Source: Anaeromyxobacter paludicola (GTDB taxonomy: Bacteria; Myxococcota; Myxococcia; Myxococcales; Anaeromyxobacteraceae). Taken from it: a stretch of DNA of 64,000 bases. The notes below the pieces were generated by a model that worked only from the letters and a program-made list of their open reading frames with translations, did not search any database and was not told where the DNA came from. Within the stretch, counting starts at the first letter, position 1. Each line of letters begins with the position of its first letter. The stretch lies in contig NZ_AP025592.1 of assembly GCF_023169965.1 (NCBI RefSeq), forward strand, positions 1,054,001-1,118,000, read 5' to 3'. A program made the position numbers and the translations under genes. This document shows positions 973 through 64,000 of the stretch, piece after piece.

Positions 973-2900
<1,928 letters not shown>

Positions 2901-2946
2901 GGCTAAGCACCCCTTCTGGTAGGACGATCGACCGGTCTAACCGGCA

Positions 2947-2972
2947 AGCCCCCGAAGTTATTTTCGAGGGCT
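2947..2972 (-). other. Hairpin in the tilS-ftsH spacer
   Basis: On the minus strand, AGCCCTCGAA and TTCGGGGGCT can pair over 10 base pairs (one G-T) around a 6-base A/T-rich loop. It lies about 47 bases before the ftsH start. No T-run follows, so it is not a convincing intrinsic terminator. It could be an ftsH leader structure or a processing signal. Confidence 0.4.
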
Positions 2973-3056
2973 CCCGGGAACCGCAGCCGGACGCCCCGCC
3001 TGTGGCCGACCTTATAACAGCTTGGCCGCCGCGCCGCAGGGCGGTCGAAAGCGCGA

Positions 3057-4085
3057 TCAGCCCTTCTGGGGGCGTCCCCGGCGGCGACGCGCGAGCGCCT
3101 CCTCCGGCTGCCGCCCGATCCAGAGCCGGTCCCCGCCGAGGCAGGCCTCGCGGTCGCCCGGGAGCGAGATCCGGCCCGGGCCGGCCCGGTCGAAGAGGCC
3201 GAGCACCGCCTCGACGTGGCTGGCCGAGAGGCCCCGGCGCGAGCCGGTGGCGGCCTTCCAGAGCCGGCGCACGGCGCGGCGGCGAACGGCGAGCGGCAGG
3301 ACTCGCACCCGGCGGGCGTCGGCCCAGGCGAGCGCGCCCGCCTCGCGCCGGGCGATCCGCTCGAGCGCCCGGTCGTCGTCCCGCAGCAGATCGGCGGTGC
3401 GGGCCAGCGCCTCCTCGAAGGCCGGGTTGAAGCGGGCGAGCGCTGGCAGGAGCTCGCGCCGGATCCGGTTGCGGGTGTAGCGGGGGCTCTCGTTGCTCGG
3501 GTCCTCCAGCCACGGCAGCCCCTCGTCGCGAAGGAAGGCGCGGACCTCGGCGCGGGAGCGATCGAGGAGGGGCCGCACCAGCAGCCCGCGCTTCGGTGGG
3601 ATCGCGCCGAGCCCCCGCGCCCCGGCGCCGCGCAGGAGCCGGTGCAGCACCGTCTCCGCCTGATCGGTGCGGGTGTGGCCGGTCGCGATCCGCGTCGCGC
3701 CGGCCTCCAGGGCCACCGCCCGCAACGCCGCGTAACGGGCGAGCCGCGCCCGCGACTGCACGTTCCCCCGCGCCACCTCGACCGCGCGCCGGTGGAAGGC
3801 GACGTCGAGGCGGGCGCAGAGCTCGGCGCAGGCGTCGGCCTCGGCGGCGCTCCCGGGCCGCAGCCCGTGATCCACGTGCACCGCGGACAGCCGGGCGAGC
3901 TCGCCCGCCCGCTCGAGCGCGGCCAGGGCGGCGAGGAGCGCGGTCGAGTCCGGCCCGCCGGAGAGCGCCACCAGCACGTGGTCGTCGGGCCCGAAAAGAC
4001 GGCGCTTTTTGACCGTCTCCTTGACCGCGATCACGAATTGATGGACACTTCCCCCCGTCGTCGCTACAGGAGTCACGGAGGTCAT
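3057..4085 (-). CDS. tilS: tRNA(Ile)-lysidine synthetase TilS
   Basis: Forms lysidine at C34 of tRNA-Ile(CAU), converting AUG to AUA decoding. The PP-loop ATP motif is SGGPDS at about 42-47, followed by VDHGLRPGS and the ATGHTRTDQAETVLHRLLRG segment typical of the family (split here: ATGH then TRTDQAET). The N-terminal alpha-hydrolase domain is complete. The C-terminal part is short, so the protein (about 342 residues) belongs to the short TilS type. The start is placed at ATG 4085; an upstream in-frame ATG at 4157 would add 24 low-complexity residues without family support. It precedes ftsH, a widely conserved order. Confidence 0.92.
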   Translation of the reverse strand: MTSVTPVATTGGSVHQFVIAVKETVKKRRLFGPDDHVLVALSGGPDSTALLAALAALERAGELARLSAVHVDHGLRPGSAAEADACAELCARLDVAFHRRAVEVARGNVQSRARLARYAALRAVALEAGATRIATGHTRTDQAETVLHRLLRGAGARGLGAIPPKRGLLVRPLLDRSRAEVRAFLRDEGLPWLEDPSNESPRYTRNRIRRELLPALARFNPAFEEALARTADLLRDDDRALERIARREAGALAWADARRVRVLPLAVRRRAVRRLWKAATGSRRGLSASHVEAVLGLFDRAGPGRISLPGDREACLGGDRLWIGRQPEEALARRRRGRPQKG

Positions 4086-12784: not shown

Positions 12785-14355
12785 GCGGCGCCCTCCAGGA
12801 TCTCGAGGAACGGGTTGAAGTAGTCGTCGTCGCGCGGCACCACGCCCTCGAGCCCCTTGCCGCCGTCCTCGGCGCGGGCCACGTCGCCGAAGCGGGCCTT
12901 CCCGATGGCCTGGAAGAGCCCCTCGTCCGCGACCTCCTCGAGGAGCCCGAGCGCCTTGCCGAGCGTCTCCGCCGCCCGCCGCTCCACCGCGCCGCCCGGC
13001 CTGAGCTGCAGCTCGCCGCCGAGCGAGCGCCAGGCCCGGTAGACGTAGTCGGCGGTCTTGAGCGCCACGTAGCGGTCCATGAGGAAGGGGTTGTGCATCG
13101 CCTCGGTCATCATCCCGAGGAGCTGGATGTGCTGGCCGGTGAGCCAGGAGACCACGTCGGCCATGGTGTCGTAGGCGTGGCTGAAGAAGATGTCGCCCTG
13201 CTTGTGCTTGGTGGGCGGCATGTACTTGATGGGCGCGTCCGGGAAGAGGGTGCGCACGAGCAGGGCCTGGGCGAGCTCGCGCGCCACGGTGTCCTCGCGG
13301 GCGGGGTCGATCTCGAAGCTGTGGCCGAGCCCGATGAGCGCGTCGGGCAGCCCGGCGCGGTGCGCGAAGCTCTCGTTCACGAAGTGGCTCGCGACCACGG
13401 TGTGGGCGGCCTCGTCGGCGTCGGCGGTGGTGATGTAGTTGTCCTCGCCGGTGTTGATGAGGATCCCGGCGAAGGCGCAGATGCGGCGCGAGAAGTGCTG
13501 ATCGCAGAGCGTCCGCTTCATGTTGATGTCGCGGAACAGGATCCCGTACATGGCGTCGTTGAGCAGCATGTCGAGCCGCTCCCACGCCGCCGCGATGGCG
13601 ATCTCGCTCATGCAGAGGCCGGACGAGTAGTTGGTGAGGTGCACGTACCGGCCGAGCTTGCGCGACTCGGCGTCGAGCGCCTCGCGCATGATCCGGAAGT
13701 TCTCCTGGGTGGCGTAGGTGCCGCCGTAGCCCTCGGTGGTGGCGCCGTGCGGCACGTAGTCGAGGAGCGACTGCGCCGTGGAGCGGATCACCGCGATCAC
13801 GTCCGCCCCGGCCTGCGCCGCCGCCCGCCCCTGCTCCACGTCGTCGTGGATGTTGCCCGAGGCGACGATGAGGTACTTGTGCGGGAGCGGCCCCGCGCCC
13901 AGCTCCGCCTTGAGCGCGTCGCGCCGCTCCACCCGGGCGCGCAGCTCGGCGGCGGCGGCGCGCGCCTCCCGGCGCATCTCGGCCCGGAGCGCCTCGTCCT
14001 CCTCCGCCGGGAGCGGCGGCGGGTCGCGCGGCAGGGCCGCGATCCGCTCGGCCACCTGCAGCGGGTCGCGCGCGCCCTGGCGCATGGCCCAGCCGAGCCA
14101 CCAGGCCGCGCCCCGGCCCACCAGCCCTCGCGCGTGCAGCTCGTCCACGATCAGGTTGACGAAGGGGACGCCGCGCGAGCCGGCGCCGTGGAACCCGAAC
14201 AGCCGCAGCACCGCGCGCTCGATGGAGACGGTGGTGTGCCGCTCCACGAAGCCGATCACCGGCGCGGTGATCCGGTCGGCCAGCTCCCGGCAGCGCGCCA
14301 CCGCCGCGGCGTCGAGCCGCAGGTCCGGCACCGTCCTGCCATCGGCCAGGCGCAT
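12781..14355 (-). CDS. kamD: Lysine 5,6-aminomutase, alpha subunit
   Basis: 524 residues, full length for KamD (TIM-barrel partner of KamE). Strong family segments are KYLIVASGNIHDDVEQG, HGATTEGYGGTYATQENF, LTNYSSGLCMSEIA, MYGILFRDINMKRTL, DQHFSRRICAFAGI and PTKHKQGDIFFSHAYD. First gene of a five-gene minus-strand operon in which every junction overlaps by four bases. It starts 40 bases after mtaB with a promoter-like sequence between them. The pathway genes kamA and kdd are not in the window. Confidence 0.95.
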   Translation of the reverse strand: MRLADGRTVPDLRLDAAAVARCRELADRITAPVIGFVERHTTVSIERAVLRLFGFHGAGSRGVPFVNLIVDELHARGLVGRGAAWWLGWAMRQGARDPLQVAERIAALPRDPPPLPAEEDEALRAEMRREARAAAAELRARVERRDALKAELGAGPLPHKYLIVASGNIHDDVEQGRAAAQAGADVIAVIRSTAQSLLDYVPHGATTEGYGGTYATQENFRIMREALDAESRKLGRYVHLTNYSSGLCMSEIAIAAAWERLDMLLNDAMYGILFRDINMKRTLCDQHFSRRICAFAGILINTGEDNYITTADADEAAHTVVASHFVNESFAHRAGLPDALIGLGHSFEIDPAREDTVARELAQALLVRTLFPDAPIKYMPPTKHKQGDIFFSHAYDTMADVVSWLTGQHIQLLGMMTEAMHNPFLMDRYVALKTADYVYRAWRSLGGELQLRPGGAVERRAAETLGKALGLLEEVADEGLFQAIGKARFGDVARAEDGGKGLEGVVPRDDDYFNPFLEILEGAA

Positions 14356-14361
14356 GGCCGA

Positions 14362-14390
14362 GTCTTAGGCCCGTGCCCCGCCGGTGGCAA
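14362..14390 (-). promoter_or_regulatory. Candidate promoter of the lysine operon
   Basis: On the minus strand, TTGCCA (14390-14385), a 17-base spacer and TAAGAC (14367-14362). Only six bases separate the -10 box from the kamD ATG, so a transcript from it would be leaderless or nearly so. Confidence 0.4.
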
Positions 14391-21165: not shown

Positions 21166-24100
21166 TCAGGGATCGACGCCGCTCTCGTAGTCGTAGAAGA
21201 CGTTGCCGCCGCTGTAGTACTGCTGGTGGTTGTAGCCGCAGGCGCTGACGCCGTCGCTCCCCTGCTTCGTGTAGCAGAGGTAGGAGGCCGAGGTCCCGCC
21301 GCGCTGGAAGCCGACCAGGCCCTCGCCGTTCATGAGCCGCTTGCCCGAGTAGCTGCCGGCCCGCTGCGAGCCGCCCGCGAAGTTGGTGCCGTGCCCGTGG
21401 CCCAGGTTGGAGCCGTGGATGGAGCCGACGCGGCCGCCGCCGTGGCAGATCATGCAGGCGATGCCGCGCTCGGTCTGGGCGACCACGTAGTTGATCTGCC
21501 CGCCGTAGTGGAGACCGGTGGCCGGCGGATGCATGGCGCGCGACCAGGTGTACTTCGCCGGCGACTGGTACAGGGTGTCGCCGTACACCTCGAAGCGGTG
21601 GCAGTTCAGGCAGAAGTTGGTGCGGTAGGGCGAGCTGCCGCTCCCCGGGGGGTCGACGGCGACGTTGCTCACCGTCTGGAACTGCCCCGCGGTGGTGCTC
21701 GTGACCGCGCCCGACGTCGAGTAGACGGGGTAGGTCTTGCCCTTGTAGTTGCGGAGCAGCCAGCGCTGGCCGGAGCCGTGCGGGCCGTAGGCGTCGGTCG
21801 CGCCCGCCGGGGCGGCGACGTCGTCGCTGGCGTGGCAGTCGGTGCACTTGAGCGTGCTCCAGGGCCCCCAGGGCGGCACGAAGGTCGCCCCGAGCCCGGG
21901 GGTGAGCGCGAACGCCTGGCCGGAGCCGGCCCGGGCCGCCGCGCTCCGGTCGAGCACGAGGTGCGTCGCGTCCTGGATCGCGGCCACCTGGTACCACCCG
22001 GCCGCGCCCTGGGCCGGCGCGGCGCTGCCGACGAAGAGGAACCAGCCCGGGAGCGTGGTCGCGGGCCAGATGCTGCCGCTGAGCGTCACCACGCCCCTGC
22101 CGGACGCGTTGTCGGCGACGCTCACGGTCACGCCGGTGCTCGAGACGAAGCGGGGCCAGTTGGGGTTGTAGACCGAGCCGGCGACGTCGCTCGAGACGAG
22201 CGGCTGGTTGCGTCCGGGGGCGAAGACGGCGTGGTGGGCCAGGTTGTTCGGGTTGAACTCGTTCGCCACGTCGCTCTCGCGCAGGCAGCCGGCCGGGGAC
22301 GCCTGGACCAGCGGCGACATGGCGGCGCCGTTGCCGAGGAGCGAGGTGCACCCGCCGGCGCTGGCGAGGCTGAAGTCGTTGAAGACCATCGACGAGAACG
22401 GGCCGGAGTTGGCGCCGGAGAAGGCCGCGATGGACCCCCGCCGGTTGTTCGACCAGGGCGCCGCGCTCGGGTCGGTGCCGTAGGCATAGCTCGAGTGGCA
22501 CTTCAGGCACACGCCGGCCGAGGTGCTCGGGGTCGCGGTCCGCGTGAGCGTCACCGGGTTGTAGACGGGCTGCGAGGCGGGGCTCTGGGCGCCGTCCTGG
22601 CCCCGGAACGTCGCGTCGCCGTTCACGATCGGCTGCCCGTCGGTGCCCCACCCGTCCCAGTAGTCCGGGGGCGGGGGCTGCGCCGGGAACGCCGGCTCCA
22701 CGCCCCAGGCCCCCTTGAGCGCGCCGCCGGGGTCGGTCGCCCCGAAGGCGCCGTTCGAGATCACCACGTACTTGCTGCCGGCGGCCGGGGCGGGGTCGCT
22801 GCCGCCGAACTTGACGGTCAGGGTGGTGGCGGTGTTGGCGAAGACGGTGCTCGTCGAGCCCGCCCCGGTCCCGGAGACGATCTTCACCGTCCAGCCGACG
22901 CGCCCGTTGACCGGCCAGGCGGCGGAGGAGTCGGTGAGGACGTCGAGGGCGGCCGACTCGACGCCGCCCGAAGCCTGCGCGGTGCCCGCCACGAAGCCGG
23001 TCACCGTCGCGGCGCCGCCGCCGGTGCGCCCGGCGCGGTGCGGATCGTGGCAGTCGGCGCACTCCACGTGACGGTTGGCGCCCGAGAGCGAGCCGTCGGC
23101 GGCGGCGGCCCCCTCGACCCCGGGCTTGTGCGCCGCCGGGTTCGCGCCGATCTCGTGCCTGGTCCGGTACCCGGTCGGCGGCGTGTAGTAGGTGGTCAAG
23201 GTGCCGGCCGGGAAGTCGTCCGGCCAGTACTGCGCCGAGCCGAGCGCGAACAGGCTCGTGCTCGGCGGCGTCATCGCGGTCGCGGCGTACAGGTCGCTCG
23301 CCGACATCGCCTTCGCCGGCCAGCCGTCGAGCGCCTCGCCCGCGTTCCGGTGGCACGAGTAGCAGAGCGTGGACGAGTCCATCCAGTCGGCCCCGTGCAG
23401 GCCGAACCTGGCCTCGGGATCGGTCGAGTACCGCTTGCCGAGCCGGTCCACGTGGCACTTGGCGCAGTTGGCCTGGAACTGGTTCTGGCCGACGTCCTTG
23501 AAGGGCTCCGCGGCGGCGTAGTTGTGGGCCGCGGAGGAGAACGCGGAGGCGTCGATGACGAGCGTCTGCGTCGAGCCGCTCGAGTCCACGTACGACTTCG
23601 TGAGCGCGCCCTTGTGGCAGGAGACGCACAGCCCGCCGGTCGCGGCGATGAAGTCGGTGTTGGTGAAGTTCACGTTCGGCAGCGCCGGCACGAGCGCGAT
23701 GTCGGTGCGGAGGTTCATGCCGCGCCCGCCGGCCGCGTTCAGCGAGGGCAGGAAGAGGTCGTGATCGACGTGGCACATGAGGCAGCGCCGGTTCACGTCG
23801 ACCTGCGACCCGCTCGGCGGCGAGGTCGGGTAGCTGGTCACGCCGCTGCCCGCGCTCGTGCCCGACCAGGAGGACGCCATGAGGTGGTGGTGCGCCGTGG
23901 TCGTCTGCATCGGCGACAGGACGGCGTTGTGGCAGAGGACGCAGTCGCGGCCGCCGGCGGGATCGGCCGAGAACCCGGTCGAGTGCCTGTGGCAGTCGGT
24001 GCAGCGCTGCGTCGGCCCCGGGCTCGCCGAGTAGTGGGCGTCGAGGTTTCCGTCGGCGCGCCAGCGCGGCAGGCCGGTGGACTGATCCTGGGTCCGGGTG

Positions 24101-27100
24101 TGGCACACCTGGCACGGGCCGGTGCGATCCGCGTTCACGTACGACGGCTTCCCGCCGCACGCCGGGTCGGCGGAGTCGCCGCAGGTGGCCTGGAACGAGA
24201 CCGCCCGCGTCGGCTGGTAGCCGTTCACCGGCGGTGGCGTGATCTGCCCGGCCACCAGGTAGACGTTGGTGGTGCCGTGGGGCGCGTGGCAGTCGCGGCA
24301 GTGCGTGCTCCAGGCCCCGTACTGGCTCTGGGTCGTCTCGCTCGAGTGGGTGGGGACGTTGTGGCAGTCGGTGCAGAGCTGCGACGAGTTCTCGCGCCCG
24401 AGCAGCATGCCGTCGCCCGCGCCCTGCCGCAGGATGGTGAGGGTGACCGGGGTGGAGAGCGTGGTCTGGGTGCCGTTGCTGGCCTTGGCCACGAGGGTGT
24501 ACGCGCCCGACTGGAGCGGCAGGACCGTCTCGTAGACGCCGGCGGTGGGGCTCCCGGCCGGCGTGGCCGGGTACTTGGAGCTCAGGGTGAGCGCCGTCGC
24601 GTGGGCCCAGGCGTCGGAGGTGATGGTCACCGGGCTGCTCGGGGCCAGGGCCGCGAGCCCGGCGGGATGGTAGACCCGCACCTGCACGCGGATCCCGGTC
24701 CGGGCCGGGCTCAGCGTCCCGCTGCGCGGGTTCAGGATCTCCACCATGGGCGAGCCGAGGGCCGGGTTCCCGGAGCTCGGACCCGCGACGATGGTGAACA
24801 CGTTCCCGACCACGCCGGTGCCGCCGCTCGAGGCCGGCGCGTCCGGGGCGAGGCTGGACGGCTGCAGGGAGGCCTGGAAGGTGTCGCCCGGGGTGGCGCC
24901 CCGCGGGACCGACATGAGCAGCGCCAGGGTCACCGGGCTGCCGGCGCGGACGGCGTAGGCGAGGCTCGAGAAGTGATAGCCGCTGCCGGAGGCCGCGGCG
25001 TTCCCCACCACGTTCCCCGTCGCGTCCTCGACGAGCTGGAAGCGGAGGCCGTCGAGCAGGCTGGCGTAGCCGAGGTTGGCCAGGTCGAGCGACTCCAGCG
25101 TCACCGCGCCGCTGCTCGCCGTCAGGCTGAAGCGGGCCACCTTGACCCCGGCGGTGCCGGCGGCCACCGTCCCGCCGGTCGGCTCCGGGAGGGCCGGCGC
25201 GAGGGCCAGGGACGCGCAGACCGGCGCGAAGACCGCGCTGCTCACCACCGGCGGGACCGTGCCGTCGGGATCGGTGAAGGTGGCCTGGTAGTAGTAGGCC
25301 TGCGACGCCGACAGGGTCGTGTCCAGGCAGGTGCGCGCGCCGAGGCCTCCGACGGGCGACGGGCAGCCCGCGATGGCCGTCCACGGCCCGGTGGGCGAGA
25401 GGCCGCGCTGGAACAGCGTGGCGCTGTTGTCGTTGGTGTCCCCGCCGAAGGTGGCCGTCACCGTGGCCTGGCTGCAGCTGGTCACGTCCGCGCTCACGGA
25501 GGCGCTCGCCACCGCGAGCAGCGCCGGCTGGGGGATCACCGGGCCGGTGGGGTTCGCGACCGAGTAGTTGAAGCACGAGTCGGCCCCGAAGACGGCGTAG
25601 TAGTAGCGCGTGCCGTCGATCAGGGAGGTGTCGGTGAAGGTCGTGCCCGGGCCGCTGTAGACCACCAGGCTCGAGTCGATGAAGGCGCCGGCCGGGTAGA
25701 GCTGCCCGTCCACCGGCGCGCCGACGATGGGCACCGTGTCCCGGACGATCACCACCGAGGTGTGGCTCGGGCCCGGGGTCCAGTTGAGCGTCACCTGGCC
25801 GTCCTGCCGCACCACCCTCCCCTGCACCTGCCCGTTCACGGTGGTGCCCCAGGTCGGCGCGGCCGGCGTGAGGTCGTCGATCACCACCGTCGCCCCGCCG
25901 CGATCGCTCACGCTGAGGTTGGTGTAGCCGCCGTTCACGGCCGTCACCGTCCCGGTGAGCGCGAAGGCGGCGCCGGGCGCGGCCGGCATGGCCGCCTTGG
26001 TCTTCGGCGTGATGCGGACCCGGTACTGGACGGCGCTGCCCGTGACCGTGAGCGGCTGGGCCAGCGGGACGGTGAGGACGTCGGTGGTCGGGTAGTCCAC
26101 CGAGCCGAGCGCGTTCCCCGCGTCGTCCGTGACCTCCACCCTGGCGAGGTACCGCCAGGCGCCGGGCGCGAAGGTCACGGTGACGCCGGTGACGCCGTTC
26201 GAGCCGGCGCTGTTCTGGAGCGTGAACGCGTCGAGGGACGTGGCCCCGCCGAGCGGCGCCGCGCAGAGCGGCGCCCCCGCGGGCCAGTCGGGCGGGTTCG
26301 CGCCGTCGCCGAGGTTGGTCCTGACCGGCGCCCGGTCGTAGGAGAAGCTGAAGCCGCGGTAGTCCGAGGCCGGCGAGGCGTTCAGGGACGCCCCGCCGTC
26401 GGCGTCGGTCCAGCTGAACGAGGTCCCCCCGCTCCAGTTGAGCCGCTTCGCCCACAGGTTCCGGTTGGCGTCGGAGAAGGCGAGCATGAGGGTGTCGGGC
26501 GAGCCCGGGTCGGGCGCCACCTCGAGCCAGCTCTTGCTCGCCGGGGCCGTCCCACCCCCGGACCAGTACTGCGACCGCGAGAAGGCGCCGCCGTCCACGG
26601 AGTAGGCGTAGGTGACGCTGGAGTCGTCCCAGCCGTCCCAGATCACCACCGCCGCGCTCGAGCCCGAGCGCGTCAGCCAGCCCGCCCCCAGGATCTTCTG
26701 CGCCGGGTCGATGTTGCCGTTGTTCCACTTCTGGGCGGCTCGCCCCGCCGTCTGCGCGATGGCGCTGCCGTCCCAGAGCACCACGTTGATCTGGGAGCCG
26801 GAGGGGTAGCTCCCCTGGTAGACGTCGGTCGCGGCCACCACCCGGTTGCTGATCGGATCGGCGGCCGCCACCACGTGGGCGCCCGGGGCGCCGCCGTTGA
26901 CGGTCTGCGAGCCGGCGCTGGCGAGGGCCACCGGCGACTGCCAGCCCGCGCTCCGGTCGTAGTAGCGGTACTTGTTGGAGATGCTGGTCAGGCCGGCGTC
27001 GACCTCGGTCCAGAAGAGGATGAAGTTGCCCGTCAGGCTCTCGTAGGCCCCCGAGACGTCGTCGCTGTCGCCGGGCTGGCAGGCCCCGTACTGCAGGCCG

Positions 27101-30100
27101 GTGTGCGCCGCGGCCGGCTCGCCGGACCACGTGCTCCCGTTCCAGAACACCGTGGTCAGGTTCCCGGTCGGATAGTTGTTGTAGCCCGTCAGCGTGGTGT
27201 CCGAGACCGTGAGCGCCAGCTCGTCGGTCCCGGGGCGGGGCGTGAGCTTCACCAGGGCCACGTCGTTCACGAGGCGCGACAGCCGCAGCAGCCGCTCGTC
27301 GGTCCAGCTCGTGCCGTTCCAGATCCGGTAGCCGACCACCGGCCCCTGGCCGTCGCCCTTGGCGTACACCACCACGGCGCTGCCCGAGGACAGGTAGGCG
27401 ATGTCGTAGCGGCGGGTGACGAGCGGCGTGCCCGAGTTGTAGGGGTAGTTGCACGCGTTGTAGGCGACGTTGGTGACGTACTTCCTCGTGGTCTGCAGGT
27501 AGTAGGTCCAGTCGTCCACCCAGCTCGTCCCGTTCCAGCGCTGGACGTACAGCGACGAGCCGAGCATGGCGCCCACCAGGTGCTCGTTGCGGGTCGGGGC
27601 GGCCCGATCCACGAGCTTGGTGAGGCCGGTCCCCAGCGTCCGGGTGGCGGCCGCGCCGCCGAAGGCGTTCGCGATCCCGTCGTACGCCTTGCCCTGGATC
27701 GCCGCGCCGCCCACGTCGTAGGAGAGGTGCCCGGAGGACGGGGCGTAGGCCGTGACCGCCTGGCCGGCGCGGTACGGGCCCGCCTGCAGGCCCGCCGACC
27801 AGCCGCCGCACGCGCTGCCGGCGAACAGCTTGTAGTAGTAGGCCACGCCGGGGCTGACGGAGGCGTCGGTGAACGTGCTGCCCGCGCCGGCGTAGACGAT
27901 CGTGCTCGCGCCGAGCGCGCCCGGCGCGGCGTAGGTCTGGCCGGTCGCGGGGGCGTCGAGCACCGGCGCGGCGCTCCGCAGCACCAGCACCGAGGTGGCG
28001 TCGGCGGGCCGGCTCCAGGCGAGCGAGACGCTGGAGCTCGTCGGCGTCACCTTGGTCCAGCTCGCGTCCGGGGTGGTCTGCTCGAGGTACAGCGCGGCGC
28101 TCGCGCCGTCCTGGATCGACGCGTAGGGGCTCAGGCTGACGATCCCCGTGACGACGCCGCTCACGGCGAAGGTGGGCAGGTTCAGCGAGGCCCTGGGCGT
28201 GACCCGGATCCGGTACTGCGTCGCGGTGGCGGTCACGTTGATGGCCGTGGCGAGCGGCACCGTGACCACGTCGGAGCCGGGGGTCGCGACCGAGCCGTAG
28301 ACGGTGCCGCCGTCGTCGCTCGTGACCTCGACGAGGGCGAGGTACGGCGCCGAGCCCGCCACGAAGGTCACGGTGACGGTCGAGAGCACGTCGCCCATGT
28401 CGCTGCGCAGGGTGAAGGCGTCGAGCGGCGTGGCGGCGGGGCTGGCGGAGGCGAGGCAGGCCGGCGCGCCGGAGGTCACGCCGGGCGGGTTCGTCCCGTC
28501 GCCGACGTAGACGGTCCAGGCGGCGGTGGGGACCGCGCGGTCGTAGGAGAAGCCGAAGCCGAGGGTCGAGGTGCTGGCGGCGGCGTTGAGGGAGCTCCCG
28601 CCGTCCGCGTCGCTCCAGGCGAAGCTCGTGCCCCCCTTGTAGGCGAGCCGCTTCGCCCAGACCTTGCCGGCGCTGTCCTGGAAGGTCAGCATCAGGTTGG
28701 TGGCGGCGAGCGGGTCCGACTCCGCCTGCATCCAGGTCTTCGAGCCGGGGACCGCCCCTCCGAACGAGCCGAGCTGCGGCGCGGAGAAGCTGCCGTCGAG
28801 CGACCAGGCGTAGGTGATCCCGCCGGTCTGCGCCGTGTCCCACATGACCATGGCGGCGCTCGAGCCGGCCGCGGACACCCAGCCCACCGCGAGCGGCTTC
28901 GTGCCCGCGGCCACCGGCGACGCGTTGGCGGAGGAGACGGCGGCGCTCGGCCCGAAGGCCGCGCCGCTCCAGACGATGGGGTGGATGGCCTGGCCGGCGT
29001 TGGTGGCGGCCACGATCTGGTTCGAGAGCGGGTTCCCGGCGGCCACGACCTGGAGCGGCCCCGAGCCGAAGGCGCCCCAGAGCGTCTTCGCGCCCCAGGC
29101 GGCGGTCTCGCAGGCGTAGGCGGTGCAGCCGGGAGCCTGGCGCAGGTGGCGCTGGGAGTAGAGCGTGGACGAGGTGCCCGACCCCTCGGCGAAGAAGGCG
29201 ATGAAGTTGCCGGTCTTGCCCTCCCAGGCGCCGTCGAAGGCGTCGGAGTCGCCGAGCGCCGCGGCCCGGTAGACCGAGGTGCTCTGCACCACCTCCGCGT
29301 CCCACTGGGTCCCATCCCAGAACCGCGTGACGAGCTTGCCGTTGCCGTCCACCACCATGAGCGCGAGCTCGTTCGTGCCCGGACGCGGGACGAGCTTCAT
29401 CATCACCGGCGTGCCGGTGAAGGCGCCCGAGGTGTAGGTCGCCCAGTAGCCGCTCTTGGCCACCGGGTCCCAGGACTCGTACTTCACCGAGCCGGCGCCG
29501 TTCGGCGCCACCACCATGGCGGTCCCCGACGCCGTGAACCCCACGTCGTAGTTGCGCACCGCGCTCGTGGCGGTGGTGCCGGCCACGACCACGCTTGGCC
29601 AGCTGGTGTCGAGCCCCTGGTAGAAGGTGAGGCCCGAGGTGCCGCCCTCCCGGCCGAGCAGATACTGGGAGTAGACCGGCGAGGACCGCAGCAGCAGGTA
29701 CCCGGCGCCGTCGGTGGTGGAGCCGGTGGGCTCGACCGAGGCGCCGAAGGCGTTCGCCGCGCCGTCGTAGGCGCGCGTGGGCACGAGGTTGTTGCTGTTC
29801 ACGAAGAGCCGGCCGCTCGAGGCCGGCATCGCGGTCATGGGGCTCGTCTGGAGCGGTCCGACCGAGACGCCCGGGGAGTAGCCGTTGCAGAGCCCCTTGT
29901 TGAAGAGCTTGTAGTAGTAGGGCCCGCTCCCGACGGTCGTGTCGGCGAGCGAGGTGCCGGCGCCCGCGTACACCACCGCGCTCTGGCCGATGGTCGCGCC
30001 CGCCGCGTAGGTCTGGCCGTCCACCGGCGCGTCGGCGACGGGGGCGCTGCTCCGCAGCACCAGGGCCGAGCTGACGATGGTCCCGGACCAGGTGAGGCCG

Positions 30101-31008
30101 ATCTGCGCGCTGGTGACGTTCGTCCTTCCCCAGGCGAGGTCGGCCGGCTTCGCGTCCACGGCGATGGGCCCGGCCTGCGCGCCGCTGTTCGAGTAGTTCC
30201 CGCAGAGGTCCCGGGTGAAGATCTTGTAGTAGTAGCCCTGGCCCGCGACGACCGAGGCGTCCACGAAGCTCTTGGCCGTGCCGGCGTACACCACGGTGCT
30301 CGAGCCGATGGTCTGCCCCGCGGCGTACGTCGTGCCCGCGGCGGGGTAGTCGCCGATGCTGTACGACGCCCGGCGCAGGACCACCACCGAGGCCGCGTCC
30401 GAGCCGGTGGACCAACTGAGCGAGACCTGCGACGGAACGTAGCAGCCCGGGCTGCTCCACGCGGGCACCGCCGGCATCGCCTGGGCGTAGATGGTGGCGC
30501 TGGTGGCGTTGCTGAAGGACTTGGTCGGGCTGGCGGACGAGACCAGCGTGGAGACCGTCCCGCCCACCCCCGGCCCGGCGACCTGGTAGTTCGCGGGGGA
30601 CGTGGAGTACATCGGGAAGCTCGACTTCGGCGTGATCTTGAGGTGGTAGCGCTGCGCGACGTTGGTGACCTGGATCGGCGTGGAGAAGGAGATCGAGGTG
30701 ATGGACGTCGAGGTGCCGAGCACCGTGCCGCTGTCGTCCGCGACCGACACCTGGCCGATGTAGCTCGAGGCGCTCGCGGGAAAGCTGAAGCCGAGGGAGC
30801 TGACGGAGATGCCCGACGCGCTGTCGGACAGCAGCGAGAAGTAGTCCGCGTCCACCGTGGCCGAGCCGGCGCACATCGGCGCGGTGAGCGGCATCGCCGG
30901 CGGCGGCGAGCCGGTGCCGTCCGAGACCCAGATGCTGTTCGCGAGCGCCGCGATCGGCCAGCTCAGCGCCACCGCCAGCAGGACCGCGATCCCCTTCACC
31001 CTTCCCAT
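21166..31008 (-). CDS. Giant 14-haem cytochrome c with three repeated beta-rich modules
   Basis: 3280 residues. ATG 31008 begins a signal peptide (MGRVKGIAVLLAVALSWPIAALA). Residues about 25-2200 hold three related modules. Each starts with a DGTxxPP beta-sandwich (nt about 30950, 28510, 26300), followed by fibronectin-III-like domains with TYAAG...STVVYAG...YYYKLF...CGNYS patterns. In the first two, a propeller-like segment follows (YDGAANAFG, NELAL, FWDGTQW). The last 1070 residues carry 14 CxxCH haem sites (first near nt 24370, last near 21450): CTDCH, CRDCH, CQVCH, CTDCH, CVLCH, CLMCH, CVSCH, CAKCH, CYSCH, CADCH, CLKCH, CTDCH, CLNCH, CMICH. No membrane anchor is seen. A role in extracellular electron transfer or surface binding is inferred. 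Confidence 0.93.
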   Translation of the reverse strand: MGRVKGIAVLLAVALSWPIAALANSIWVSDGTGSPPPAMPLTAPMCAGSATVDADYFSLLSDSASGISVSSLGFSFPASASSYIGQVSVADDSGTVLGTSTSITSISFSTPIQVTNVAQRYHLKITPKSSFPMYSTSPANYQVAGPGVGGTVSTLVSSASPTKSFSNATSATIYAQAMPAVPAWSSPGCYVPSQVSLSWSTGSDAASVVVLRRASYSIGDYPAAGTTYAAGQTIGSSTVVYAGTAKSFVDASVVAGQGYYYKIFTRDLCGNYSNSGAQAGPIAVDAKPADLAWGRTNVTSAQIGLTWSGTIVSSALVLRSSAPVADAPVDGQTYAAGATIGQSAVVYAGAGTSLADTTVGSGPYYYKLFNKGLCNGYSPGVSVGPLQTSPMTAMPASSGRLFVNSNNLVPTRAYDGAANAFGASVEPTGSTTDGAGYLLLRSSPVYSQYLLGREGGTSGLTFYQGLDTSWPSVVVAGTTATSAVRNYDVGFTASGTAMVVAPNGAGSVKYESWDPVAKSGYWATYTSGAFTGTPVMMKLVPRPGTNELALMVVDGNGKLVTRFWDGTQWDAEVVQSTSVYRAAALGDSDAFDGAWEGKTGNFIAFFAEGSGTSSTLYSQRHLRQAPGCTAYACETAAWGAKTLWGAFGSGPLQVVAAGNPLSNQIVAATNAGQAIHPIVWSGAAFGPSAAVSSANASPVAAGTKPLAVGWVSAAGSSAAMVMWDTAQTGGITYAWSLDGSFSAPQLGSFGGAVPGSKTWMQAESDPLAATNLMLTFQDSAGKVWAKRLAYKGGTSFAWSDADGGSSLNAAASTSTLGFGFSYDRAVPTAAWTVYVGDGTNPPGVTSGAPACLASASPAATPLDAFTLRSDMGDVLSTVTVTFVAGSAPYLALVEVTSDDGGTVYGSVATPGSDVVTVPLATAINVTATATQYRIRVTPRASLNLPTFAVSGVVTGIVSLSPYASIQDGASAALYLEQTTPDASWTKVTPTSSSVSLAWSRPADATSVLVLRSAAPVLDAPATGQTYAAPGALGASTIVYAGAGSTFTDASVSPGVAYYYKLFAGSACGGWSAGLQAGPYRAGQAVTAYAPSSGHLSYDVGGAAIQGKAYDGIANAFGGAAATRTLGTGLTKLVDRAAPTRNEHLVGAMLGSSLYVQRWNGTSWVDDWTYYLQTTRKYVTNVAYNACNYPYNSGTPLVTRRYDIAYLSSGSAVVVYAKGDGQGPVVGYRIWNGTSWTDERLLRLSRLVNDVALVKLTPRPGTDELALTVSDTTLTGYNNYPTGNLTTVFWNGSTWSGEPAAAHTGLQYGACQPGDSDDVSGAYESLTGNFILFWTEVDAGLTSISNKYRYYDRSAGWQSPVALASAGSQTVNGGAPGAHVVAAADPISNRVVAATDVYQGSYPSGSQINVVLWDGSAIAQTAGRAAQKWNNGNIDPAQKILGAGWLTRSGSSAAVVIWDGWDDSSVTYAYSVDGGAFSRSQYWSGGGTAPASKSWLEVAPDPGSPDTLMLAFSDANRNLWAKRLNWSGGTSFSWTDADGGASLNASPASDYRGFSFSYDRAPVRTNLGDGANPPDWPAGAPLCAAPLGGATSLDAFTLQNSAGSNGVTGVTVTFAPGAWRYLARVEVTDDAGNALGSVDYPTTDVLTVPLAQPLTVTGSAVQYRVRITPKTKAAMPAAPGAAFALTGTVTAVNGGYTNLSVSDRGGATVVIDDLTPAAPTWGTTVNGQVQGRVVRQDGQVTLNWTPGPSHTSVVIVRDTVPIVGAPVDGQLYPAGAFIDSSLVVYSGPGTTFTDTSLIDGTRYYYAVFGADSCFNYSVANPTGPVIPQPALLAVASASVSADVTSCSQATVTATFGGDTNDNSATLFQRGLSPTGPWTAIAGCPSPVGGLGARTCLDTTLSASQAYYYQATFTDPDGTVPPVVSSAVFAPVCASLALAPALPEPTGGTVAAGTAGVKVARFSLTASSGAVTLESLDLANLGYASLLDGLRFQLVEDATGNVVGNAAASGSGYHFSSLAYAVRAGSPVTLALLMSVPRGATPGDTFQASLQPSSLAPDAPASSGGTGVVGNVFTIVAGPSSGNPALGSPMVEILNPRSGTLSPARTGIRVQVRVYHPAGLAALAPSSPVTITSDAWAHATALTLSSKYPATPAGSPTAGVYETVLPLQSGAYTLVAKASNGTQTTLSTPVTLTILRQGAGDGMLLGRENSSQLCTDCHNVPTHSSETTQSQYGAWSTHCRDCHAPHGTTNVYLVAGQITPPPVNGYQPTRAVSFQATCGDSADPACGGKPSYVNADRTGPCQVCHTRTQDQSTGLPRWRADGNLDAHYSASPGPTQRCTDCHRHSTGFSADPAGGRDCVLCHNAVLSPMQTTTAHHHLMASSWSGTSAGSGVTSYPTSPPSGSQVDVNRRCLMCHVDHDLFLPSLNAAGGRGMNLRTDIALVPALPNVNFTNTDFIAATGGLCVSCHKGALTKSYVDSSGSTQTLVIDASAFSSAAHNYAAAEPFKDVGQNQFQANCAKCHVDRLGKRYSTDPEARFGLHGADWMDSSTLCYSCHRNAGEALDGWPAKAMSASDLYAATAMTPPSTSLFALGSAQYWPDDFPAGTLTTYYTPPTGYRTRHEIGANPAAHKPGVEGAAAADGSLSGANRHVECADCHDPHRAGRTGGGAATVTGFVAGTAQASGGVESAALDVLTDSSAAWPVNGRVGWTVKIVSGTGAGSTSTVFANTATTLTVKFGGSDPAPAAGSKYVVISNGAFGATDPGGALKGAWGVEPAFPAQPPPPDYWDGWGTDGQPIVNGDATFRGQDGAQSPASQPVYNPVTLTRTATPSTSAGVCLKCHSSYAYGTDPSAAPWSNNRRGSIAAFSGANSGPFSSMVFNDFSLASAGGCTSLLGNGAAMSPLVQASPAGCLRESDVANEFNPNNLAHHAVFAPGRNQPLVSSDVAGSVYNPNWPRFVSSTGVTVSVADNASGRGVVTLSGSIWPATTLPGWFLFVGSAAPAQGAAGWYQVAAIQDATHLVLDRSAAARAGSGQAFALTPGLGATFVPPWGPWSTLKCTDCHASDDVAAPAGATDAYGPHGSGQRWLLRNYKGKTYPVYSTSGAVTSTTAGQFQTVSNVAVDPPGSGSSPYRTNFCLNCHRFEVYGDTLYQSPAKYTWSRAMHPPATGLHYGGQINYVVAQTERGIACMICHGGGRVGSIHGSNLGHGHGTNFAGGSQRAGSYSGKRLMNGEGLVGFQRGGTSASYLCYTKQGSDGVSACGYNHQQYYSGGNVFYDYESGVDP

Positions 31009-31140
31009 GCGCGCCCCCCCGACTCGTACCGTCCGGGCAGATATTTGCACAAACGGGGCCACCCATGCGGGGGATTCGTTGACGCTTGGTCACGGCGGCG
31101 CTGACCACCCGTGAACCCGGCCGGCCCTGCGGCGGCCGCG

Positions 31141-32121
31141 CTACGGCGCCGGCTGCCAGACGCGCACCCAGTCCACGTCCATGTGGGTGGTGCTGGCGGC
31201 GCGCGTGCCGTAGCCGCCCGCCGGGACGTAGCCGGCCCAGGTCCCGTCCTCGACCTCGCAGGTGAGCTGCAGGAACTCGCTCCGGTTCGAGATCCCCTGG
31301 GCGAAGGACCAGACCTGCGCGCCGTCCACGTAGAACGCGTAGCCCGCCGGCGTCCAGAGGACGGCGTAGGTGTGCCACTCGCCCTGCACCGGCGCGCCGT
31401 CCGGGAGGGTGGTGACGTTCGAGAAGTCCTTGCGGTCGGCGCCGTAGCCGTCCCAGTGCAGCGCCTGCTGGACCATGTCGCGCAGCGCGTCCCAGCCCTT
31501 GGTGTCGGTGACCCGGTGCTCGACGACGTCGATCTCCGCCCCGGCGGTCCCGGGGTCGCCCACCGGATTGCCCACCGTGGACGCGAACATCCAGAAGGCG
31601 CACCACTCGCCCGGCGCGTCCTGGAAGCGGATGCGGGCCTCGTAGTAGCCGTAGGTGGACTCGAACGCGTGCTCGGTGGAGAGGAAGCCGGTGTAGTTCT
31701 GGCCGTTCTCCGTGTACGTGGTCAGCGTGAGGAGGCCGTTCGCGACGCTCACCGCGTCCGGGGTCGCCGCCGCGTCGCGCCGCGGGAAGCTCTGGGCGGT
31801 CCACTTCGTGGGGTCGAGCCCCGAGCCGTCGAACTCGTCGTGCCAGACGAGGTGGTAGCCGGGGACCGGCGAGGGCCAGGAGAGCGCCGGATCGGCCGGC
31901 GTGGCGCTGCCGCCCTGCGCGGTGCCGGTGGCGCCGCCGGCGCTCCCCTCCCCGGCGCCCCCGCCCGGCGCCGCGGGCGCGCCGCCGCCGCCGCCGGTGC
32001 CGGAGCCGGCGCCCGGATCGGCCGTGGTCGTCGGCGTCGGAGCAGCCGCCCCGCCGCAGGCCAGGGCGAGGAGGAGCGCGGCGGGAGAGAGCGGACGAAG
32101 GAGCGGACGGAGCGGGTGCAT
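31141..32121 (-). CDS. GH16 family glycoside hydrolase lipoprotein
   Basis: 326 residues. The lipobox LALAC places Cys at about 22, then a Gly/Ala/Thr-rich linker to about 80, then a beta-jelly-roll GH16 domain. The catalytic E-x-D-x-x-E motif is AEIDVVE (Glu196 nucleophile, Asp198, Glu201 acid/base). WHDEFDGSGLDPTKW at the domain start and MDVDWVRVWQ at the end are family hallmarks. The substrate is probably a beta-1,3-glucan such as laminarin. It faces the same way as the giant cytochrome, 132 bases upstream of it, without an obvious functional link. Confidence 0.9.
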   Translation of the reverse strand: MHPLRPLLRPLSPAALLLALACGGAAAPTPTTTADPGAGSGTGGGGGAPAAPGGGAGEGSAGGATGTAQGGSATPADPALSWPSPVPGYHLVWHDEFDGSGLDPTKWTAQSFPRRDAAATPDAVSVANGLLTLTTYTENGQNYTGFLSTEHAFESTYGYYEARIRFQDAPGEWCAFWMFASTVGNPVGDPGTAGAEIDVVEHRVTDTKGWDALRDMVQQALHWDGYGADRKDFSNVTTLPDGAPVQGEWHTYAVLWTPAGYAFYVDGAQVWSFAQGISNRSEFLQLTCEVEDGTWAGYVPAGGYGTRAASTTHMDVDWVRVWQPAP

Positions 32122-62656: not shown

Positions 62657-63178
62657 TTGGCCTGGGCCTGGCCGCGGATCCTCCTCGGAGTCGCCCTCGG
62701 CGGCGCGCTCCTCCTCGAGCCCGGCGCGGCGCGCGGCGCGGACGGCGGCCCGGCGCCGCTCTACCAGGCGGAGCCCCCGCCCTTCACGCCCGGCATCTTC
62801 CCCTGCACCCAGTGCCACCAGGGCCCGGGCGATCCCACGCGGCGCCGGCTCGGCTTCCACGACGACGTCCAGGACCGCTTCGACCACGACGCCGAGCACC
62901 GCTGGTGCCTCGACTGCCACGACAACGCCGACCGGGACGTGCTCCACCTCTCCTCGGGCGAGCGCGTGCCCTTCACCGCCTCCTACCGGCTCTGCGGCCA
63001 GTGCCACGGGGACAAGTTCCGCGACTGGCGGGTGGGCGTCCACGGCAAGCGCACCGGGCAGTGGAACGGCGCCAAGACCTACTACCTCTGCGTCAACTGC
63101 CACGACCCGCACTCGCCGCGCTTCAAGCCGCTCCGCCCCGATCCCCGGCCGCAGCGGCCCGAGGAGATGGGGCCGTGA
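62657..63178 (+). CDS. Tetrahaem cytochrome c
   Basis: 173 residues from TTG 62657, which has GGGAGGTGGAGC upstream. A signal peptide (ILLGVALGGALLL) is followed by four CxxCH sites: CTQCH, CLDCH, CGQCH and CVNCH, with distal His candidates in between (FHDDVQDRFDHDAEH, GVHGKRTGQW). The spacing resembles small c3/NapC-type periplasmic subunits of CISM respiratory complexes. The stop overlaps the FeS subunit GTG start, so they are co-translated, periplasmic or membrane-associated partners. Confidence 0.9.
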   Translation: MAWAWPRILLGVALGGALLLEPGAARGADGGPAPLYQAEPPPFTPGIFPCTQCHQGPGDPTRRRLGFHDDVQDRFDHDAEHRWCLDCHDNADRDVLHLSSGERVPFTASYRLCGQCHGDKFRDWRVGVHGKRTGQWNGAKTYYLCVNCHDPHSPRFKPLRPDPRPQRPEEMGP

Positions 63179-64000
63179 GCGCGGGCGGGCCGGGCGGAGG
63201 CGGGCTCTCGCGCCGCCAGTTCCTCGGGCGCGGGCTCGCGGTGGTGGCCGCCGCCGCGGCCTCCGGCTGCCGCGTCGAGGAGCTCATCGGGCGGAGCTTC
63301 CGCGAGCTCTCCCGGGACGACGTGGCGCGGGTGCTGGCGCGGGCCGCGCGCCGGCAGTCGGCGCGGTTCGGGCGGCCGGTCACGGTGGACGGGGCGGGGC
63401 CGCTCCCGGGCGTGGACTTCGGCTACGGCCTCGACCTCTCGCGCTGCATCGGCTGCCGCCGCTGCGTCACCGCCTGCGTGAAGGAGAACAACCCGTCCCG
63501 GCGGCGCCCCCAGATCCAGTGGATCAAGGTGCTCGAGCTCGACAAGGCCCGCGGCGTGGACCTGGCGCACGCCGACGCCTACTACGAGGCGGACGCGGTG
63601 CCCCGCCCCGGCCACTTCTACATGCCGGTGCAGTGCCAGCAGTGCCGCAAGCCGCCGTGCGTGAAGGTCTGCCCGGTGGGCGCCACCTGGAAGGAGCCCG
63701 ACGGCATCGTGGTGGTGGACTACGACTGGTGCATCGGCTGCCGCTGCTGCATGTCGGCCTGCCCGTACGGCGCCCGCCACTTCAACTGGGCCGAGCCGGA
63801 CCTGCCGGCCGACGAGCTCAACCCCTCCACCCACTACCTCGGGAACCGCCCGCGCCCCAAGGGCGTGGTGGAGAAGTGCACCTTCTGCATCCAGCGGGTG
63901 CGCCACGGCCGCTACCCGGCCTGCGTCGAGGCCTGCCCGGTGGGCGCCCGCAAGTTCGGGAACCTCCTCGACCCGGAGAGCGAGATCCGCCAGGTGATGG
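63175..64000 (+). CDS. Tat-exported ferredoxin-like subunit with four [4Fe-4S] clusters (runs off window)
   Basis: At least 275 residues. The N-terminus LSRRQFLGRGLAVVAAAAAS is a twin-arginine signal ending near a possible lipid Cys. Cysteine groups are CIGCRRCVTAC, CQQCRKPPCVKVCP, CIGCRCCMSACP and CTFC..ACVEACP, as in NrfC/DmsB/HybA-type subunits. With the tetrahaem cytochrome before it, a NrfD-type quinone-binding membrane subunit is expected next, outside the window. The electron path would be quinol to FeS to haems, direction unknown. The 3' end is missing. Confidence 0.9.
   Translation, partial: MSAGGPGGGGLSRRQFLGRGLAVVAAAAASGCRVEELIGRSFRELSRDDVARVLARAARRQSARFGRPVTVDGAGPLPGVDFGYGLDLSRCIGCRRCVTACVKENNPSRRRPQIQWIKVLELDKARGVDLAHADAYYEADAVPRPGHFYMPVQCQQCRKPPCVKVCPVGATWKEPDGIVVVDYDWCIGCRCCMSACPYGARHFNWAEPDLPADELNPSTHYLGNRPRPKGVVEKCTFCIQRVRHGRYPACVEACPVGARKFGNLLDPESEIRQVM

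Follow-up and report, generated by a model that had tools for sequence, protein, structure and literature searches.

Very large cytochromes that unite haem-binding and non-haem surface domains in one polypeptide are known from anaerobic methanotrophs (ANME): the MHC-A/B/C proteins have S-layer, M6-like or pectin-lyase domains together with 20-86 haems, often possess membrane helices at the C-terminus, and have been suggested to make contact with partners or the cell surface (PMC9012536). Fibronectin-type domains are fused to multihaem cytochromes in OetF of syntrophic sulfate reducers, for which matrix or partner binding was proposed (PMC10553843), and in a Geoalkalibacter protein with 24 haems and two FN3 domains in 1,208 residues (PMC12016550), and adhesion was proposed here too; expression of a gene for an FN3-bearing multihaem cytochrome has been observed in soil undergoing Fe(III) reduction (PMC6199725). 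Anaeromyxobacter dehalogenans has 68 cytochrome genes, one of them encoding a protein with 40 haems (PMC2330069). The known porin-cytochrome (pcc) clusters of Anaeromyxobacter lack the outer-membrane cytochrome that could make the final contact with insoluble electron acceptors (PMC4245776). Here, we describe a giant cytochrome gene of Anaeromyxobacter paludicola, a soil bacterium from a group known for metal reduction, in a stretch of 64,000 nucleotides, the window (contig NZ_AP025592.1, positions 1,054,001 to 1,118,000; coordinates below are those of the window). The protein joins a head of repeated beta blocks with two predicted propellers to a conserved tail with 14 haem sites. We lean towards the view that it is an outer-surface multihaem cytochrome whose adhesive head would dock a target while the tail passes electrons. 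Although giant cytochromes with surface domains and FN3-bearing cytochromes are already known, the repeated head and the family defined by the tail appear to be new.

Residue numbers and the method behind each feature are given in brackets; D1, X and Y are beta domains named in this work, P is the propeller segment, FN-like stands for fibronectin-like and Ig for immunoglobulin.

21166-31008, minus strand: giant cytochrome gene, 3280 residues, one intact open reading frame (ORF) (ORF list and translation)
30937-31008, minus strand: Sec-type signal peptide, MGRVKGIAVLLAVALSWPIAALA, with no lipobox Cys near the cleavage site (read from the translation)
30454-30927, minus strand: block A, beta domain D1 (28-185; profile search)
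29833-30420, minus strand: block A, two FN-like domains (197-288, 305-392; profile search)
28522-29853, minus strand: block A, beta-propeller P1 (386-829; profile search, structure prediction, fold search)
28054-28509, minus strand: block B, D1 (834-985; self-comparison, profile search, AlphaFold2)
27754-28023, minus strand: block B, FN-like domain (996-1085; profile search, AlphaFold2)
26317-27771, minus strand: block B, beta-propeller P2, 40% identical to P1 (1080-1564; profile search, comparison of P segments)
25846-26316, minus strand: block C, D1 (1565-1721; self-comparison, profile search)
25519-25788, minus strand: block C, FN-like domain (1741-1830; profile search)
24799-25473, minus strand: beta domains X (1846-1938) and Y (1939-2070), common to the paralogues (profile search)
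24427-24750, minus strand: Ig-like domain, always before the haem tail (2087-2194; profiles, weak PDB match)
21169-24423, minus strand: 14-haem tail (2196-3280), CxxCH at 2212, 2237, 2299, 2336, 2356, 2409, 2461, 2515, 2549, 2650, 2834, 3055, 3133 and 3185 (Pfam, motif scan, tail alignment)

The ORF is exceptionally long and the gene lacks the cassette partners usual for its relatives (see below), as could be the case if a sequencing error had joined two genes or the gene had decayed. This explanation is extremely improbable. Third-position GC content stays at 98-100% in all slices of 300 codons, so that the stretch reads as one gene in one frame and nothing hints at a frameshift join; the same head-to-tail fusion occurs in single ORFs of paralogues in this genome and in other genomes, and all 14 haem sites are intact. 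On the grounds of the uniform codon composition and the homologous fusions, we rejected a frameshift or two-gene fusion, which a first-pass annotation of the window had named as a risk while giving the length, strand and coordinates of the ORF correctly. Genes were called with a GC-frame heuristic and not with a standard gene finder; a long plus-strand ORF (21226-31104) that overlaps the giant gene on the opposite strand is an antisense shadow of the kind usual for genes this rich in GC.

Profiles built from the repeats gave the domain order signal peptide, D1-FN-FN-P, D1-FN-P, D1-FN-X-Y-Ig and 14-haem tail, with three D1, four FN-like and two propeller-like domains in total. In the self-comparison, blocks A and B are 37.8% identical over 587 residues (E=2e-93), with a second alignment at 37% identity over 265 residues (E=8e-34), and both match block C at E=2e-26 to 1e-39. 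The first-pass annotation had described a block repeated three times from about 30950, 28510 and 26300, two copies of which carry a propeller-like segment; we find the repeats starting at 30927, 28509 and 26316, and both segments (386-829 and 1080-1564) are predicted to be beta-propellers. Two details changed: a predicted all-beta, fibronectin-like domain is indeed present in every block, but block A holds two instead of one, and the third block goes on after its D1-FN pair with three further beta domains, X, Y and an Ig-like domain, the last of which belongs to the haem tail. Pfam recognised no head domain, even when the domains were scanned singly, and "fibronectin-like" therefore refers to a predicted all-beta fold, not to a Pfam FN3 match. 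With the head as query, a direct scan of the genome contigs gave no match and a PDB sequence search nothing useful. Unlike the ANME proteins, the A. paludicola protein had no S-layer, M6-like or pectin-lyase domain among its Pfam matches, even with E values up to 1 admitted. OetF and the Geoalkalibacter protein differ in that no repeated D1/propeller blocks are reported for them, a distinction drawn from their descriptions.

An AlphaFold2 model of P1-D1-FN reached a mean predicted local distance difference test score (pLDDT) of 68, with D1 and FN mostly at 80-96, P mostly at 60-80 and the first 100 residues of P1 poor. Compared with solved structures using Foldseek and VIA-align, the P model matched propellers with Z about 19-20 over 310-320 residues at a root-mean-square deviation of 4.0-4.5; the VIA-align listing consists essentially only of propellers for P and barely covers D1 and FN. 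These data support the assignment of the P segments as beta-propellers with moderate model confidence. P1 and P2 are 28-34% identical to the propellers of a paralogue, against 40% to each other. In a profile search with E up to 1e-5 and at most eight candidates scored per genome, P was found in this genome and only one other among 195 Myxococcota genomes, where it belongs to a surface protein that consists of repeated beta domains and lacks CxxCH in the portion examined. This distribution is consistent with P being an adhesive module that was moved onto the cytochrome.

The matches to the P model include PLL/PHL lectins, WD40 proteins, polysaccharide lyases and the glycoside hydrolase (GH) BT3686. 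Just upstream of the giant gene, at a distance of 132 bases and on the same strand, lies a GH16 glucanase gene (31141-32121, minus strand), and a shared carbohydrate theme of the two genes is possible. Both the lyase and hydrolase matches and this neighbour would fit redox-assisted polysaccharide processing, with catalytic or substrate-binding propellers and a haem tail that feeds an oxidative enzyme. Such a role is very unlikely, however, since no catalytic residues were identified, the paralogues have no GH16 neighbour and the propeller is missing from most family members.

The 14 CxxCH sites are restricted to the last third of the protein (residues 2212-3185), as annotated before. When the whole protein was scanned with Pfam, the haem part alone was matched, by PF22113 (MtrC/MtrF II/IV; 48.1 bits versus a cut-off of 30) and Cytochrome_C7. 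Fourteen haem sites are present in all nine full tails that we aligned. Seven of these tails seem to have just 13 CxxCH motifs, but their sixth site is CxxxCH (C-[VL]-x-M-C-H, e.g., in L027, L029 and L033), so that counting CxxCH alone misses one haem; the A. paludicola window protein and L026 have CxxCH at this position. Outside the motifs, 13 histidines are invariant in the nine tails and two more are conserved in eight, which would suffice for full or nearly full bis-His ligation of the 14 haems.

With a mean of ~75 residues per haem, the predicted haem packing of the tail is far looser than the 22-25 residues per haem of wire-type cytochromes (PMC7399161). A PDB sequence profile search with the tail retrieved none of the solved nanowire cytochromes (OmcS/OmcE/OmcZ); its sole result was a weak match (E 0.001) between the Ig-like domain and a bacterial Ig domain of known structure. 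MtrC, OmcA and UndA, judged from their sizes, have similarly loose haem packing. They also resemble the window protein in combining beta and haem domains and through the PF22113 match, but have 10-11 haems, are lipoproteins and are encoded in mtr operons, whereas the window protein has 14 haems, no lipobox and no porin neighbour. A further explanation, put forward for the A. dehalogenans cytochrome with 40 haems (PMC2330069), is that the haems buffer electrons as a capacitor and that the head is a mere spacer. We consider this quite unlikely because 14 haems in 3280 residues would store little, some relatives have 40-52 haems and the heads are elaborate.

Judged from sequence, the Ig-like domain and the 14-haem tail define a protein family whose heads appear to be interchangeable. 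The window protein has the complete family signature, i.e., the Ig-like domain, a tail starting with GDGxLLxRxNSxQLCxDCH, 14 haem sites and the conserved extra histidines. We searched a set containing one genome per species with a profile made from nine tails. In the A. paludicola genome, a single 4.59-Mb contig with A. terrae, A. oryzisoli and A. oryzae among its relatives, the profile recovered seven full-length members, among them the window protein, as well as a partial one with 10 haems (C1:4442173). One full-length member was found in each of A. terrae and A. oryzisoli, and several other genomes of the bacterial family to which Anaeromyxobacter belongs have no full-length tail, including the single-contig 5.0-Mb G003 and G019. 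Beyond this bacterial family, a similar full tail is found in a Victivallales metagenome-assembled genome (MAG) and more distant tails in Acidobacteriota MAGs. The tail family offers strong candidates for the outer-surface contact role, though only in some members of the bacterial family.

Relatives within the same family have an extended tail start and 18-52 haems. Four loci (L037, L038, L039 and L042) reach 40-52 haems in one ORF, with 52 CxxCH in the 3872 residues of L042, and at L045, the frame of a giant without these head domains contains 70 CxxCH and continues beyond the examined stretch. At L043, L044 and L040, head-less proteins consist of Ig and 14 CxxCH in ~900-1,200 residues and possibly represent the minimal form of the family.

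The paralogues in this genome carry different heads: D1-FN twice followed by Y-Ig; D1-FN-X-Y-Ig; three D1-FN pairs; four X domains; and P-D1-FN-X-P-D1-FN-X-Y-Ig. P is absent from most family members. Two paralogues with 62% identity across 1,881 alignment columns differ in that one has two additional D1-FN pairs at its N-terminus. In a tree of D1 domains, copies from one protein mostly cluster together, with the three of the window protein at 92/86 support, while tails of different species interleave in their own tree. Together with the closer similarity of P1 and P2 to each other, this pattern indicates that the heads expanded mainly through duplications within each protein, on a tail of older origin. 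In a search for the same domain order, the exact arrangement occurred only in the window protein; the nearest was the paralogue with two propellers and a 14-haem tail mentioned last above. The suspicion that the combination might be undescribed fits our literature search, which, with incomplete coverage, found no published description of the head architecture or of the tail-defined family, and no paper on a multihaem cytochrome with a beta-propeller and a lectin.

The diversity of heads also bears on the possibility that the protein anchors itself, with the head binding exopolysaccharide or the envelope of the same cell and the haem tail facing outwards or joining a conductive biofilm matrix. 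In line with this, the propeller resembles carbohydrate-binding lectins, the protein has no lipid anchor, FN3/Ig/PKD-type domains commonly bind matrix, and the cassette partner of the relatives is a PKD/NHL/TSP3 surface protein. Self-anchoring alone, however, does not explain why paralogues of one cell differ in head architecture, and we regard it as possible but rather doubtful.

We somewhat favour the docking cytochrome, for which the signal peptide, the 14 CxxCH, the conserved histidines, the PF22113 match, the loose haem spacing, the propeller model and the combination of a constant tail with variable heads speak in favour. So do the clustering of repeats by protein, the presence of P in a surface protein of another Myxococcota genome, and the two FN3 precedents, OetF with its proposed binding role and the cytochrome gene expressed in soil. 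The Sec-type signal would export the protein, which would be placed at the outer surface. There, the N-terminal ~2,060 residues could form a duplicated beta-domain stalk bearing the two propellers, whose D1/FN/P blocks would bind an extracellular target such as a polysaccharide matrix, a mineral coating or another cell; binding of minerals or partner cells, as proposed in the first-pass annotation, is plausible. The bound head would keep the haem module against the target, and the Ig plus 14-haem module, with its predicted bis-His haems, would act as a conserved, redox-active relay between periplasmic cytochromes and the bound acceptor, with electrons flowing towards the acceptor or in the reverse direction. 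If the heads define the targets, attachment and electron transfer would be united in one exchangeable polypeptide. More tentatively, the eight proteins of this cell may represent "electron-transfer adhesins" with one conserved tail each and heads derived from internal duplication and module exchange, each docking a different mineral, matrix or partner and several having their own haem-attachment genes.

Three observations speak against a docking cytochrome. P1 shares its predicted fold with PLL/PHL and AAL propeller lectins at Z 18-19 over ~310 residues, but is only ~10% identical to them, and WD40 propellers score the same as PLL/PHL lectins, so the comparison supports a propeller fold but not a sugar-binding role. 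The AlphaFold2 model of the tail has a mean pLDDT of 34 and is unusable, leaving an arrangement of the 14 haems in one chain without geometric support. Finally, the genes next to the giant encode neither an anchor or porin nor an electron-transfer partner.

Many relatives lie in a cassette of variable gene content that encodes a PKD/NHL/TSP3 protein of ~1,000 residues, a pentahaem cytochrome, the giant, the haem-attachment proteins ResB (PF05140) and CcsA (PF01578) and a small lipoprotein; a radical-SAM/B12 gene is often present as well. The cassette is present in whole or part at L026 (3229-17572), L028, L030, L031, L056, L057, L065 and L067, and similar orders occur in Myxococcota, Victivallales and Acidobacteriota loci. 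Five of the seven ResB loci of this genome adjoin such giants. This is reminiscent of Geobacter, where ResB-ResC (HemX) pairs dedicated to nearby cytochromes were proposed (PMC2700814), but the cassette of the relatives occurs in three phyla and links the haem-attachment pair with modular giant cytochromes and a PKD/NHL protein. At the window locus, it is absent: no ResB, CcsA or pentahaem gene lies nearby, making the window gene an orphan. The cassette is also missing around paralogues L027, L029 and L032; it is frequent but not strictly required.

The giant gene is convergent with a short hypothetical gene, and searches of its surroundings revealed neither a sigma-70-like promoter nor a convincing terminator or Rfam element. 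Control by a GEMM riboswitch, as at some Geobacter genes, was rejected since none is present in the window or the paralogue loci. No match to the MtrB/PioB porin (PF11854) was found in this genome or in 24 genomes of the family, and an MtrA/DmsE-like profile gave many sub-threshold multihaem matches that were uninformative. The A. terrae locus contains a Guanidine-III riboswitch (L033:2789-2852) that does not adjoin the giant. An ARAGORN tRNA-like match in the window (14295-14388, minus strand) has a four-base anticodon and no Rfam support and is probably spurious. At the end of the window (62657-63999), a tetrahaem cytochrome gene is followed by a gene for a 4Fe-4S protein with a twin-arginine-like N-terminus, marking the start of a respiratory operon that continues past the window.
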